Assembly (NCBI RefSeq): GCF_005938745.2
Contig: NZ_VCBX02000001.1
Location: forward strand, 2,204,001 to 2,268,000
DNA from: Rhodococcus sp. KBS0724
Lineage (GTDB): Bacteria; Actinomycetota; Actinomycetes; Mycobacteriales; Mycobacteriaceae
DNA: 64,000 nt
Direction of reading: 5' to 3'
A program made the position numbers and the translations under genes. The notes below the pieces were generated by a model. The model ran no database searches. It was given only the letters and a program-made list of their open reading frames with translations, and was not told where the DNA came from. The stretch's first letter is position 1. The number at the start of each line of letters is the position of its first letter. Below are positions 59,254 to 64,000 of this stretch, in pieces.

Positions 59254-61212
59254 TTACGTCGCGTTGTGCGCCGGCTGGAAGGCTCCGGCTTCTGCGGCCT
59301 CTTCAGCGCGGATCACGTGCACCACGGCGTTGATCAATGCCAGGTGTGTGAACGCTTGCGGGAAGTTTCCGAGATGCCGGCCGGTGTGTGCGTCGATCTC
59401 CTCGGCGTAGAGCTTGAGCGGGCTGGCAAATCCGAGTAGACGCTCACACAGGTGCTTTGCGCGATCGAGTTCGCCGATCTCGACCAACGCCGAGACCAAC
59501 CAGAACGAGCAGATGGTGAAGGTGCCCTCCTCGCCGCTCAAGCCGTCGTCGGTGGTCTCGACGCGATAGCGCAGAACCAGGCCTTCTTCGGTGAGTTCGT
59601 CGGCGATCGCAAGAACGGTTGCCCGGATGCGGGGATCGTCGGCCGGGAGGAAACGCAGGAGCGGCGCGAGTAGCAGCGACGCGTCGAGTGAATTGTGGCC
59701 GTATCGCTGAGTGAGCACGCCGCGTGAGTCGACGCCGTGAGCGAGGATGTCAGCTTTGATCTCGTCGGCGATGGCGGTCCATTGCTGGGCAAAGCTCTTC
59801 TCGCCCTGCATTTCTGCGAGCTTGGCACCGCGGTCGAGTGCAACCCAGCACATGATCTTCGACGACGTGAAGTGTTGCGGTTCGCCGCGCACTTCCCAGA
59901 TCCCGCGGTCGGGTTGACGCCAATGCTTGATGGCTTCCTCGACTTGCCTCTTGAGGAGCGGCCACAACGCTTCGGGGACGCGCTCGCGGGTACGGATGTG
60001 GAGATACACGGAGTCGAGCATGGTGCCCCAGATGTCGTGCTGCTTCTGGTCGAACGCGCCGTTGCCGATGCGTACCGGTCGCGCACCGTCGTAGCCGGAC
60101 AGGTGGCTCAGTTCGGATTCCTCGAGTGTGCGCTCACCGCCGATGCCGTACATGACTTGCAAGGGGTGCGGTTTCCCGTGGTCGGAACTGGAGACGTCGT
60201 AGATGAAGTTGAAGAAATCGTTGGCTTCGCGGTCGAGTCCGAGGGTGTAGAGGCCCCAGAGTGCGAAGGTGGAATCGCGAACCCAGGCGTAGCGGTAGTC
60301 CCAGTTTCGTTCTCCGCCAGGGGTTTCCGGGAGCGATGTCGTGGAGGCGGCCAGAAGAGCGCCGGTGGGGGCGTAGGTGAGCCCCTTGAGGGTGAGAGCG
60401 CTGCGCTGGAGGTAGGCCCGCCACGGATGGTCGGGGAACTTGCCGATGGTGACCCATTCACGCCACGATTTTGCGGTCTGCCACATCATCTCGGCGGCTT
60501 CGTCGAAAGTCTGCGGCGACGGCAGTTCGGACCACGACAATGCGACGAACGCGTTGTCGCCCTCGACCAGCCGGGTGCGGGCGCGGGCTTCGCGGCCTTC
60601 GAGTCCGAGCCGTAGATCGGTGGTGAGGCGAAGTGACGGATGATCGCCCGGCCGCGACGAATGGCACGTTGCCGTCGCCTCTTCGTACACCTTGCCGGTG
60701 TACTCCCAGATTGCGGCGCCGCGGTGGTAATCGAAGGCCGGTTCGCAGCTCATCTCGAGCTCGACAGTGCCGCTGACGCACTTCACAGTGCGGAGCAGGA
60801 TGTGTTCTGCATCCCAGTCGGTAGGTGTGCGCCGGTGAGTGCTCGAACGCTTGTCGACGTTGTGCCACGGGCCCAGAACCAGTGCGTCGCGCACGACCAG
60901 CCATCCGGTCTCGGTCTGCCAGGTGGTCTCGAGAATGAGCCCGCCGGGAAGGTAGCGGCGAGCGGCCGGCACGTTCTGGCCGTAGGGGCCGATCCGGAAG
61001 TGCCCTGCACTGCGATCCAGGATCGCGCCGAAGACGCTCGGAGAGTCGGGGCGTGGGACGCACATCCACTCCACCGATCCGTTTCGGGCGATCAAGCAGG
61101 ATGTCTCGCAGTCGGACAGAAATGCGTAGTCGTCGATGGGTGGGAAGTTGCTTCGATGGTGGCCTGCCGTTGTGGAGGGGACGGCCTGCATTACTTCGTC
61201 GTCGACACTCAT
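59254..61212 (-). CDS. GH15 family glycoside hydrolase, probable trehalase
   Basis: About 652 residues. The N-terminal part begins FPPIDDYAFLSDCETSCLI, the usual entry of actinobacterial GH15 trehalases. The (alpha/alpha)6 barrel has NWDYRYAWVRDSTFALWGLY and WEVRGEPQHFTSSKIMCWVALDRG (first catalytic Glu region), with the later acid in EEGTFTICSFWLVSAL. It matches the Rv2402/mycobacterial trehalase by position and motifs. It would cleave trehalose to two glucoses. The start among ATG 61212, 61191 and GTG 61248 is uncertain. A 77-bp gap separates it from the divergent small membrane gene. Confidence 0.9.
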   Translation of the reverse strand: MSVDDEVMQAVPSTTAGHHRSNFPPIDDYAFLSDCETSCLIARNGSVEWMCVPRPDSPSVFGAILDRSAGHFRIGPYGQNVPAARRYLPGGLILETTWQTETGWLVVRDALVLGPWHNVDKRSSTHRRTPTDWDAEHILLRTVKCVSGTVELEMSCEPAFDYHRGAAIWEYTGKVYEEATATCHSSRPGDHPSLRLTTDLRLGLEGREARARTRLVEGDNAFVALSWSELPSPQTFDEAAEMMWQTAKSWREWVTIGKFPDHPWRAYLQRSALTLKGLTYAPTGALLAASTTSLPETPGGERNWDYRYAWVRDSTFALWGLYTLGLDREANDFFNFIYDVSSSDHGKPHPLQVMYGIGGERTLEESELSHLSGYDGARPVRIGNGAFDQKQHDIWGTMLDSVYLHIRTRERVPEALWPLLKRQVEEAIKHWRQPDRGIWEVRGEPQHFTSSKIMCWVALDRGAKLAEMQGEKSFAQQWTAIADEIKADILAHGVDSRGVLTQRYGHNSLDASLLLAPLLRFLPADDPRIRATVLAIADELTEEGLVLRYRVETTDDGLSGEEGTFTICSFWLVSALVEIGELDRAKHLCERLLGFASPLKLYAEEIDAHTGRHLGNFPQAFTHLALINAVVHVIRAEEAAEAGAFQPAHNAT

Positions 61213-61289
61213 TCGGACATTGTCCGGCCAGATCTGGGACACGTCCACTCCACGGCCATTCGGTGCCGGTGGCCCCGAACGATAGGGTG

Positions 61290-61517
61290 ATGGGCGTGGA
61301 CCGAATTGCAGGTTGGTGGGACGGCGTGGAGCTGTGGATTGCGGGGCTTCCCTTCATCCCACAGGTCGTGTTGGTCCTTGCCGTTGTAGTTCCCCTGTGC
61401 GCCGGCGTCGCGATCGGTTTGGATCGCGGATTGTCCGCTGTGTTGTCGTCGCCGGTCTTCGAGTGGCTGCGACGCAACCCGGCGACGGTCTCCGATGAAA
61501 CCCCTGAGAAATCCTGA
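61290..61517 (+). CDS. Small conserved membrane protein (Rv2401A-like)
   Basis: 75 residues. A short N-terminal amphipathic part (VDRIAGWWDGVELWIAG) leads to one strong membrane helix (FIPQVVLVLAVVVPLCAGV), and LRRNPATVSD is the polar tail. AGGG is just upstream of the ATG. GTG 61296 is an alternative. It is conserved in mycobacteria and rhodococci near the sulfate importer and trehalase. Function is unknown. Confidence 0.8.
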   Translation: MGVDRIAGWWDGVELWIAGLPFIPQVVLVLAVVVPLCAGVAIGLDRGLSAVLSSPVFEWLRRNPATVSDETPEKS

Positions 61518-61536
61518 GAGAAGTCGAGGAAAACCG

Positions 61537-61614
61537 ATGCCCCGCTCACGGGTCACTCTTGCCCTGATCGCCCTGATCCTTCTTTGTATCGTGGCCTGGC
61601 TTCTCACTCGTTAG
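61537..61614 (+). CDS. 25-residue single-span membrane microprotein
   Basis: ATG 61537 to TAG 61612-61614 gives MPRSRV followed by a hydrophobic stretch of about 17 residues and a closing Thr-Arg. The positive N-terminus, central membrane helix and lone arginine at the end form a typical small membrane protein. GAGGA lies seven bases upstream. It is 19 bases after the 75-residue membrane protein gene and looks co-transcribed. No known homologue was recognised. It is short enough that chance cannot be excluded. Confidence 0.55.
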   Translation: MPRSRVTLALIALILLCIVAWLLTR

Positions 61615-61646
61615 AGATTCGATTCGAGACCGCCGGAACGCTCTGC

Positions 61647-61652
61647 TAGAGT
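61647..61652 (+). promoter_or_regulatory. Probable -10 of the sulfate-importer leader transcript
   Basis: TAGAGT ends seven bases before the GTG at 61660. Transcription is expected to start at that GTG, giving a leaderless first ORF. No strong -35 is seen. Confidence 0.55.
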
Positions 61653-61659
61653 CCACGAC

Positions 61660-61749
61660 GTGTCCGAAGCAGCAGCTCCTGAGATCCGCCACCAGTTGGC
61701 GTTGATCGCTGTCGGCATGCTCGACGTCGCTGACGTCGCCTGTTGTTGA
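61660..61749 (+). CDS. Cys-Cys-ending leaderless leader peptide of the sulfate importer
   Basis: GTG 61660 opens a 29-codon frame (begins SEAAAPEIRHQLALIAV after the start) that ends Val-Ala-Cys-Cys-stop, with TGT TGT TGA at 61741-61749. A TAGAGT -10 seven bases upstream places the transcript start at the GTG. Mycobacteria have leaderless short ORFs ending in consecutive cysteines that act as cysteine-responsive attenuators of sulfur genes; this fits in every feature. Ribosome stalling at the Cys codons when cysteine is scarce would change folding of the hairpins downstream. Confidence 0.8.
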   Translation: MSEAAAPEIRHQLALIAVGMLDVADVACC

Positions 61750-61759
61750 TTTCCCTGTA

Positions 61760-61901
61760 GTTCGAATTCCGCGGCGGTGCACTTGCGCCCCGCTCGAACT
61801 CTTCTGCGCGTTCCTCGCGCCCCCGACCAAGGGCATCTGAAAGCCCCGTCGGCTCCCCATGTCCGAACGTCCCGATGGATTCAGCCCCAGAGGTCTCGGA
61901 C
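61760..61901 (+). promoter_or_regulatory. Three-hairpin attenuator region upstream of sbp
   Basis: Three consecutive stem-loops follow the Cys-Cys ORF: GTTCGA/TCGAAC (61760-61799), CCGAC/GTCGG with an inner GGGC/GCCC (61823-61852), and GTCCGA/TCGGAC (61861-61901). A direct repeat GTCAGCCC (61913 and 61926) flanks a T5 run. The sbp ribosome binding site GGAAGG is at 61938-61943. This suggests alternative folding controlled by ribosome position. Confidence 0.65.
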
Positions 61902-61951
61902 TTTCACGCTCGGTCAGCCCTTTTTGTCAGCCCTCTCGGAAGGTATCTGCA

Positions 61952-62983
61952 ATGAAACGCCGTTCCCGCACACTCCTCACTGCTATCGCGACCATGGGGG
62001 CCGTGGTACTCACAGCGTGCAGCGGTGGCTCGAGCGATACCGTCGGCGCCGACGCCGTCGCCAGCGACGGCAGCGCCGGCACGATCAACCTGTTTGCCTA
62101 CGCGGTTCCGAAGCCCGGCTTCGACAAGCTGATTCCCGCCTTCCAGGAGACGGAAGACGGCAAGAATGTCGCGTTCAACCCGTCGTACGGCGCATCGGGT
62201 GACCAGTCGCGCAAGGTGAAGGACGGTGCTGAAGCCGACTTCGTCAACTTCTCCGTCGAGCCGGACATCACGCGCCTCGTCGACGCCGGCCTGGTGGACA
62301 AGAACTGGAATCAGGACGCCTACAACGGAATTCCGTTCGGATCGGTTGTCACCATCGTGACGCGTCCGGGAAACCCGAAGGGCATCAAGGACTGGGACGA
62401 CCTGCTGCAGCCCGGCCTCGAAGTTGTCACCCCGAACCCGTTCAGCTCGGGCTCGGCCAAGTGGAACCTGCTGGCGCCGTACGCGGCAAAGAGTGACGGC
62501 GGCAAGAACCCGCAGGCCGGCCTCGACTACATCACCGCGCTCGTCAACGATCACGTCAAGATCCAGCCGAAGTCGGGCCGCGAAGCATCGGAAGCCTTCT
62601 TGCAGGGCAGCGGCGACGTTCTGATCAGCTACGAGAACGAAGCACTGTTCATCGAGGGCAACGGCGATCCGGTCGAGCACGTCACCCCGCCGACGACGTT
62701 CAAGATCGAGAACCCGGTCGCAGTGCTGACGAACAGCAAGGTTCTGGAGAAGGCAACGGCGTTCAAGGACTACCTCTACACCACCGAAGGCCAGAAGCTG
62801 TGGGCCGAAGCAGGATTCCGCCCGGTTGATCCCGCGGTTGCCGCCGAGTACGCCAGCAAGTTCCCCGAGCCCACGAAGCTGTGGACCATCACGGATCTGG
62901 GTGGCTGGAAGACCGTCGACGCCGAACTGTTCACCAAGGACACCGGTTCCATCGCCGTAATCTACGACAACGCAACCAAGTAA
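61952..62983 (+). CDS. sbp: Sulfate/thiosulfate-binding lipoprotein
   Basis: 343 residues. The signal peptide KRRSRTLLTAIATMGAVVL ends in a lipobox-like LTAC, making this a lipid-anchored binding protein. The mature part has the Sbp/SubI pattern: TINLFAYAVPKPGFDKLIPAFQ, FNPSYGASGDQSRKVKDG, ADFVNFSVEPDITRLV, VTIVTRPGNPKGIKDWDDL and NPFSSGSAKWN. It captures sulfate for the CysT/CysW channel. ATG 61952 follows GGAAGG by eight bases. It is followed by cysT after seven bases. Confidence 0.95.
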   Translation: MKRRSRTLLTAIATMGAVVLTACSGGSSDTVGADAVASDGSAGTINLFAYAVPKPGFDKLIPAFQETEDGKNVAFNPSYGASGDQSRKVKDGAEADFVNFSVEPDITRLVDAGLVDKNWNQDAYNGIPFGSVVTIVTRPGNPKGIKDWDDLLQPGLEVVTPNPFSSGSAKWNLLAPYAAKSDGGKNPQAGLDYITALVNDHVKIQPKSGREASEAFLQGSGDVLISYENEALFIEGNGDPVEHVTPPTTFKIENPVAVLTNSKVLEKATAFKDYLYTTEGQKLWAEAGFRPVDPAVAAEYASKFPEPTKLWTITDLGGWKTVDAELFTKDTGSIAVIYDNATK

Positions 62984-62990
62984 GACTGCC

Positions 62991-63851
62991 GTGACCGACA
63001 CCATTGAACGCACACCCGTGACCCGCAAACCCGTGACCCGCAAACCCAAACTCGCGCGGGTCACGGGAAGCGTCGGGCCACTCGGCATCGGCGTGGCCAC
63101 ACTCTGGCTTTCCATCATCGTCCTGCTGCCACTCGCGGCGCTGACCGTCACCGCTTTCGACGACGGTATCGCCGGGTTCTGGGACGCCATCACCGCACCG
63201 GTTGCGTTGGCGTCGTTGCGGGTGACGTTGTTCGCCTCGATCGTCGTAGCGTTGATCAACGTCGTGATGGGCACGATCATCGCGTGGGTGCTCGTGCGAG
63301 ACGAGTTCCCGGGCAAGCGAATTGTGAACGCGATGATCGACCTGCCGTTTGCGTTGCCGACCATCGTGGCGTCGATCGTGCTGCTGTCGCTGTACGGACC
63401 GCAGTCGCCGATCGACATTCACCTCAACGCAACCCAGCCCGGCCTGATCGTCGCGCTGGCATTCGTGACGCTGCCGTTCGTGGTGCGCTCGGTGCAACCG
63501 GTGCTGATGGAGGTCGATCGCGAAGTAGAGGAAGCGGCAGCATCTCTGGGTGCTTCCAACTGGACGATCTTCCGTTCCGTGGTGTTGCCGACACTGGCTC
63601 CTGCCGTGATTTCAGGAGCCGGCCTGGCGTTTGCGCGAGCTATCGGTGAATACGGTTCCGTGGTCCTCATCGGCGGCAACATTCCGCGCGTGACGCAGGT
63701 GACGTCGCAGTACATTCAGCAGCAGATCGAAATCGATCGCCCCACCAATGCTGCTGCGGTGTCGGTGGCTTTGCTGCTCATCGCGTTCGTGACGCTGTTC
63801 GTTCTGCGTCTCTTCGCTTCCCGGGGCCAACGACGTGAGGAACGCGGCTGA
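62991..63851 (+). CDS. cysT: Sulfate ABC transporter permease CysT
   Basis: 286 residues with six membrane segments. The CysT-specific YGPQSPIDIHLNATQPGLI loop and the ABC-permease EAA motif (EVEEAAASLGASNWTIFRSVVLP) are present. The N-terminal tail has a 12-base direct repeat giving two copies of PVTRK. It forms the importer channel with CysW. GTG 62991 starts seven bases after sbp. The stop overlaps the cysW ATG (TGATG). Confidence 0.95.
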   Translation: MTDTIERTPVTRKPVTRKPKLARVTGSVGPLGIGVATLWLSIIVLLPLAALTVTAFDDGIAGFWDAITAPVALASLRVTLFASIVVALINVVMGTIIAWVLVRDEFPGKRIVNAMIDLPFALPTIVASIVLLSLYGPQSPIDIHLNATQPGLIVALAFVTLPFVVRSVQPVLMEVDREVEEAAASLGASNWTIFRSVVLPTLAPAVISGAGLAFARAIGEYGSVVLIGGNIPRVTQVTSQYIQQQIEIDRPTNAAAVSVALLLIAFVTLFVLRLFASRGQRREERG

Positions 63852-64000
63852 TGAAGATTTCCACGAAGTCGCGGATTGGACTGCGGTCCGTCGCGCTTCT
63901 GTATTTGTTCGTTCTGTTGGTGGTGCCGATCGGCGTGATCTTGACGCGCACGTTCGAGAACGGGATCGGTGCATTCATCGACTCGATCACGACTCCCGCC
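63851..64000 (+). CDS. cysW: Sulfate ABC transporter permease CysW, 5' part
   Basis: The first 50 residues are in the window; the gene continues past the right edge. A basic N-terminus (KISTKSRIGLR) leads to the first membrane segment (ALLYLFVLLVVPIGVILTRT), then FENGIGAFIDSIT, as in CysW. ATG 63851 overlaps the cysT stop. The ATPase gene cysA probably follows outside the window. Confidence 0.9.
   Translation, partial: MKISTKSRIGLRSVALLYLFVLLVVPIGVILTRTFENGIGAFIDSITTPA

Follow-up and report, generated by a model that had tools for sequence, protein, structure and literature searches.

The window analysed here, a 64,000-nucleotide stretch of the genome of the soil bacterium Rhodococcus sp. 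KBS0724, ends in genes for a sulfate importer. The first of these, sbp (61952-62983, + strand), starts at ATG 61952 and encodes a 343-residue sulfate ABC transporter substrate-binding protein, scoring 169.3 bits on TIGR00971 (cut-off 155.5). The nearest named sbp, from R. globerulus NBRC 14531, is 97% identical. It is followed by the sulfate permease gene cysT (62991-63851, +; TIGR02139, 272.7 bits, cut-off 246.1) and by an open frame cut by the window end (63851-64000, +), which from gene order is presumably the start of cysW. A cysA-type gene lies just past the window (L107:7655-8692) and scores 409.1 bits on TIGR00968 (cut-off 342.75).

Directly upstream of these importer genes, of which sbp and cysT both exceed their family cut-offs, lies a 29-residue, predicted leaderless short ORF (sORF; 61660-61749, +). 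It opens at GTG 61660, encodes MSEAAAPEIRHQLALIAVGMLDVADVACC and closes on TGT TGT TGA (61741-61749), the two terminal Cys codons (61741-61746) being the presumed sensing site. The first-pass annotation had described a 29-codon frame ending Cys-Cys-stop with a TAGAGT hexamer seven bases before its GTG, and the coordinates bear out both. As TGC directly precedes the hexamer (61647-61652), the whole element (61644-61652, +) is an extended -10 of the TGN-TANNNT kind. The TGN is found in 61 of 62 unique relatives; the sole exception to this count, L064, has one too, with a spacing of 6. The hexamer lies seven bases from the start in 83 of 84 sORF rows (allowed range 6 to 8), and a wider search (4 to 10) again gave seven for the sORF in all loci printed except L064. 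From the position of the -10, transcription is predicted to begin at or beside GTG 61660.

Further upstream, a small ORF (61296-61517, +) has its GTG seven bases past a TAGGGT and likely encodes a leaderless small membrane protein; a counterpart is also present in many Rhodococcus relatives. Between it and the Cys leader lies a tiny hydrophobic ORF, MPRSRVTLALIALILLCIVAWLLTR (61538-61614, +); L075 and L089 are among the relatives' loci that hold a similar ORF.

Family membership and distribution

In a profile search the leader matched the NCBIfam model NF042937 (NF042937.1; "Ms4533A family Cys-rich leader peptide") with 53 bits, the cut-off being 31, and with peptide residues 1-29 aligned to positions 1-30 of the 30-position profile. 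Pfam gave no match for the ORF, and Rfam returned four matches across 61000-62300, all to unrelated families and far below gathering scores. Within the order, 33 of 298 genomes matched NF042937 (29 above cut-off), compared with 0 of 14 control genomes, and no plasmid copies of the leader were found. Going by its name, the family presumably goes back to polycysteine leaderless short ORFs described in M. smegmatis (Canestrari et al. 2020, Mol Microbiol 114:93-108). According to a review, small leaderless ORFs in which Cys codons run contiguously control downstream genes through cysteine-dependent attenuation. Six Cys-rich sORFs of M. tuberculosis, conserved with M. smegmatis, are likewise predicted cysteine attenuators in PMC9094748.

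The leader resembles these Ms4533A/polycysteine leaders in its above-cut-off score, leaderless-type layout, terminal Cys codons and downstream sulfate-binding-protein gene. It differs from the ATG-start members, presumed mycobacterial and ending CCR, CCCR or CCCC: in Rhodococcus the start codon is GTG and the usual end is Cys-Cys. Several relatives end Cys-Arg. By profile match and layout, the leader is thus a Rhodococcus member of the named mycobacterial family, a sound find that is not new in kind. No Rhodococcus version appears in titles or abstracts among the matches listed, from which no absence from print is claimed. The pairing with a sulfate importer, pointed out in the first-pass annotation, is no novelty, as Ms4533A leaders precede this importer elsewhere too. 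Two relatives whose leader is of the mycobacterial type again have a sulfate-binding-protein gene after it, with TIGR00971 scores of 156.2 and 157.5 bits (cut-off 155.5) over the first 299 residues of each product. With this find, the mycobacterial Ms4533A leader family extends to Rhodococcus, Prescottella and Nocardia, and each genus comes with a clear prediction.

Relatives were collected with a pattern requiring an ALIAV-type core, a Cys within the last four residues and TANNNT 6-8 bases upstream. A broader listing of leaderless-type ORFs with neither the core nor the Cys condition gave the same ORFs for loci on the + strand. The leader ORF was present in 54 of 54 fetched loci whose sbp is 68-100% identical to that of the window, several of these being one genome present in two collections. 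The pattern found no such ORF at L020 (sbp 44% identical) or L066 (61%). Seven fetched loci that match the family model but fail the pattern served as held-out rows, and three more family matches fell outside the locus set. For L001-L030 and L067-L098, "mycobacterial-type" and "Nocardia-type" are labels drawn from leader sequence and genus grouping.

Prescottella-type loci (L043, L044, L045, L046, L049, L055, L059) carry tandem sbp copies, each with its own leader in all seven. The first leader ends Cys-Arg in five and Cys-Cys in two, and the second carries Cys-Cys in 7/7. Nocardia-type leaders (L054, L056, L057, L058, L062, L064, L077, L078) close with one Cys and then Arg, and all except L064 have another Cys eight codons earlier. 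At L094:1456-1575, in a relative that belongs to a different family of the order, an ORF with a Cys-Arg end has AGGGAGAGG ahead of an in-frame ATG, and this leader may not be leaderless.

Selection on the peptide and its Cys tail

Across 59 distinct sequences (alignment codons -3 to 12), pN/pS is 0.24 in the true frame and 1.15 and 2.89 in the shifted frames, and nucleotide variability along the ORF peaks at third codon positions. This selection on codons suggests that the 29 codons are translated. Short ORFs are common in this region, 63 of at least 20 aa overlapping the last 4.5 kb of the window, which gives the idea of a chance ORF its starting point. That idea is refuted by the comparisons with relatives, as the match to NF042937, the presence at all 54 close sbp loci and the in-frame pN/pS leave it a negligible probability.

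The same purifying selection on amino acids could be read as the mark of a functional small protein with no regulatory role. Against this stand the fixed place of the ORF before sbp, a leader for every sbp copy in the seven Prescottella-type loci, the Cys-rich tail and the assignment of the family as a leader, which together make the small-protein explanation very unlikely.

The first-pass annotation named a conserved run of terminal Cys, behind upstream codons free to vary, as a pattern that would support it. In the relatives it is the run that shrinks, and the upstream core is conserved in its amino acids. Among 62 unique sORFs the tails are CC (24), CR (17), CCR (8), CCCR (5), CCCC (5), CCC (1), CCRQQ (1) and CCRR (1), so terminal Cys number varies from one to four and 17 of the 62 end in one Cys then Arg. 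The seven held-out loci end CCR (4), CCC, CR and CCRITS. A terminal Cys is kept in all of these; the 62 came from a pattern demanding a terminal Cys, the seven did not. All 62 unique relatives have TGT as the codon aligned with the first terminal Cys of the window's leader. From the tail series, it is hence this one Cys (TGT), and not the Cys run, that is conserved. TGT dominates the tails generally (TGT 109, TGC 14), the reverse of the window's coding baseline, for which 45 ORFs, called roughly, give TGC 123 and TGT 43.

Upstream of the tail, the peptide core H-x-L-A-L-I-A-V-G and V-A-D is almost fixed. This conservation raises the possibility of an arrest peptide, in which the nascent core would aid ribosome arrest with Cys in the A or P site. 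Twelve residues are invariant and four nearly so in 21 peptides; at I, A, V, G, V, A and D codon positions 1 and 2 are nearly fixed with position 3 variable; and the core stays constant while the number of Cys residues ranges from one to four. We know of no arrest peptide with an Ms4533A-type core, and part of the core conservation is accounted for by a hairpin in the RNA (see below). In addition, PMC9094748 reports for the six Cys-rich sORFs of M. tuberculosis, taken together, that codons other than Cys are skewed as selected codons are, so such selection may be general in these ORFs without arrest. An arrest peptide, as opposed to a pure codon counter, is judged rather unlikely. As selection beyond the Cys codons was already noted in M. 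tuberculosis, it is not wholly new for such peptides. Possible additions to the known picture may be the fixed core beside a varying Cys number, the hairpin within the ORF and the invariant TGT.

RNA structure of the leader and the spacer

Within the ORF, comparison of relatives identified a hairpin, H1 (61687-61701, +), in which CGCCA (61687-61691) pairs with TGGCG (61697-61701) around a loop of five. Of 59 distinct relatives, 55 have the full stem, a count that ranks first among the 1301 five-pair placements tested. Its outer pair is CG in 41 rows, GC in 14 and unpaired in 4, with CGC...GCG in Rhodococcus-type rows and GGC...GCC in mycobacterial-type rows, a compensatory exchange that may represent one main event. 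Three of the other four pairs are invariant and thus neutral as evidence. Random codons for the same peptides, drawn from the usage of nine roughly called window ORFs (some possibly not genes), gave the stem in 13% of rows on average and 25% at most. Shuffling same-residue codons within columns gave 60% on average and reached the observed value in 0 of 300 trials; as the rows are related, the frequencies from both nulls are not true probabilities.

In the held-out loci, read by eye, the full H1 stem occurs in three of seven (L070, L083, L098), and each of the remaining four has a single broken pair. Three of the seven (L082, L083, L098) are similar to the mycobacterial type except for an Arg codon CGC, and in all three the Ala codon is GCG, the partner that pairing would require. 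A second candidate hairpin in the ORF, H2 (GTCGGC with GCYGAC), was rejected: of its six pairs, one is broken in 16 and another in 13 of the 59 rows, and its wobble positions vary as much as others. In a joint control on H1 and H2, a +3 slide scored slightly higher on covariation (0.191 vs. 0.178), though with 53.5% vs. 94.5% of cells paired. Shuffling matched or surpassed the observed number of both-sided pairs in 299 of 500 runs and that of further pair types in 455 of 500. Support for H1 therefore comes from the codon nulls and the C-G/G-C exchange, and on these H1 is a supported candidate RNA element about 40 bases 5' of the Cys codons.

Downstream of the ORF, 202 bases separate the stop from the sbp ATG. 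They comprise an untranslated C-rich spacer (61750-61937, +) and the sbp Shine-Dalgarno sequence GGAAGG (61938-61943, +), which is predicted to be mostly paired and, in the consensus, paired with the sbp start. Three consecutive stem-loops had been proposed ahead of the sbp ribosome site. They do appear when the leader is folded; counted along the dot-bracket line, they lie at about 61759-61800, 61806-61820 and 61823-61852 (+), the third ending some 85 bases 5' of GGAAGG. The whole fold is no stabler than shuffles (z -0.78; 47 of 200 at least as stable), and the stem-loops are limited to one clade. In the erythropolis-type alignment of eight sequences the first is nearly always kept, the second is broken in 2/8 and the third lies outside the consensus; the opacus-type consensus of seven sequences has none of the three. 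Whole-leader covariation terms from RNAalifold (+0.11 and +0.56 kcal/mol) give no support, with both-sided changes in 4/87 and 4/74 predicted pairs of the two alignments. The three stem-loops, common to the erythropolis-type clade only, were consequently rejected as the switch.

Trp-type attenuators, e.g. ilvB1 of M. tuberculosis (PMC13236596), likewise have a leader ORF whose codons report amino-acid supply. Unlike these, the Rhodococcus spacer has no intrinsic terminator that could be found: a simple consensus scan of 61750-61951 gave no terminator-like site, the nearest being inside the ORF (61722-61738). Nor did folding predict a general unmasking of the ribosome site by a ribosome stalled on the Cys codons. 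In the window, the unpaired probability of the sbp Shine-Dalgarno is 0.30 free and 0.23 with the stalled ribosome footprint masked. Over 63 of 64 leaders (one was dropped for a spacer under 80 bases) the mean is 0.268 free, 0.297 stalled at Cys, 0.292 at stop and 0.276 in an early-ribosome control. Stalling raised it by more than 0.1 in 12 of the 63 leaders and lowered it in 4. The Cys codons lie right next to the stop codon, so a ribosome stalled there shields almost the same stretch of RNA as one that is terminating. The foldings take no account of the order and timing of co-transcriptional events and therefore leave masking unrefuted. The doubt voiced at the outset, as to whether the switch is a terminator or ribosome-site masking, was accordingly well placed.

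The lack of a terminator-like site in the spacer also speaks for Rho-dependent attenuation, in which a ribosome at the Cys codons would shield the C-rich spacer and, once it has gone, Rho would stop transcription before sbp. This alternative concerns the switch step only and does not compete with cysteine sensing. Rho-dependent leader attenuation of comparable working is known for tnaC, and likewise for mycobacterial riboswitch leaders. C exceeds G in 61 of 64 leader spacers (mean C 0.371, G 0.273), a composition that would suit Rho, with the sbp start chosen by a rule that is apparently wrong in a few rows. In the window spacer C is 0.379 and G 0.247, an excess matched by 5 of 1064 180-base windows on the same strand and by 39 of 1064 with both strands counted; these windows overlap each other and the spacer. 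Conversely, a weak control with 11 further 5' regions from the window gave top C-minus-G excesses of 0.139 and 0.10 (spacer 0.132), so a spacer-like C-rich composition is not rare. Rho is described as acting in a mycobacterial leader bearing a small ORF (PMC12810186). Overall, we give Rho attenuation rather less than even odds.

A probable leaderless cysteine-sensing attenuator and a second leader

The best reading of the locus, to which we assign a probability of roughly 85%, is that the leader acts as a leaderless cysteine-sensing attenuator of the sulfate importer and a member of the Ms4533A family. In this the cysteine-responsive attenuator first proposed holds up, with the family cut-off passed and the same importer gene downstream in relatives. 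The reading is favoured by the NF042937 match, the presence at 54/54 sbp loci, in-frame purifying selection, the fixed extended -10, TGT-biased tails, a leader for each sbp copy and a second Cys-rich leader in the same genome.

Transcription would start at GTG 61660, so that a ribosome loads on the 5' end and translates the 29 codons. With ample Cys-tRNA the ribosome would finish and leave, and the sbp-cysT operon would stay low. When Cys-tRNA is short, by analogy with the family, the ribosome would pause on the TGT codons (61741-61746) and raise operon expression. The M. smegmatis study, of one ORF, reportedly found that a ribosome stalled on Cys codons frees the sequestered ribosome site of the next gene. 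In Rhodococcus the pause could act through such a release of the sbp ribosome site, as in the mycobacterial model, or by protecting the nascent transcript from Rho in the spacer; opinion on this final step is about evenly split between the two. As a guess, H1 may pace RNA polymerase and the first ribosome.

Several points run counter to the attenuator reading, among them the failure to find such an ORF at L020 and L066. A single terminal Cys, as in 17 of 62 sORFs, seems a thin sensor for a 'polycysteine' device; selection across the whole core peptide appears to exceed the needs of a codon counter; and modelled folding predicts no Shine-Dalgarno release by a ribosome at the Cys codons. It is conceivable, if rather unlikely, that Ms4533A leaders are two-part devices, in which a conserved nascent peptide sensitises the ribosome at one invariant UGU and an embedded hairpin provides timing. 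Were this so, a single Cys would be enough, and on the leaderless message the hairpin would set the timing of RNA polymerase and of the first ribosome. The natural series of one-to-four-Cys tails, with the invariant UGU and embedded hairpin, offers a direct test of how many sensing codons an attenuator requires and of any part played by the nascent peptide.

The second Cys-rich leader, MVRMTGLGVRLVARRHVDFKRVCSSTCLHCCCC, contains six Cys residues (L107:16113-16214, -) and lies about 9 kb past the window end and about 11 kb past the first leader. It stands ahead of a sulfite- or nitrite-reductase-like gene, which, going by the mycobacterial neighbourhood and not by a family call, may be sirA. 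Against the Ms4527A family Cys-rich leader peptide (NF042936) it scores 42.2 bits, a close match that falls under the cut-off of 45. The Ms4527A family is likewise a Cys-rich leader of a sulfur gene, and its peptide sequence differs from that of the Ms4533A-type leader at 61660-61749.
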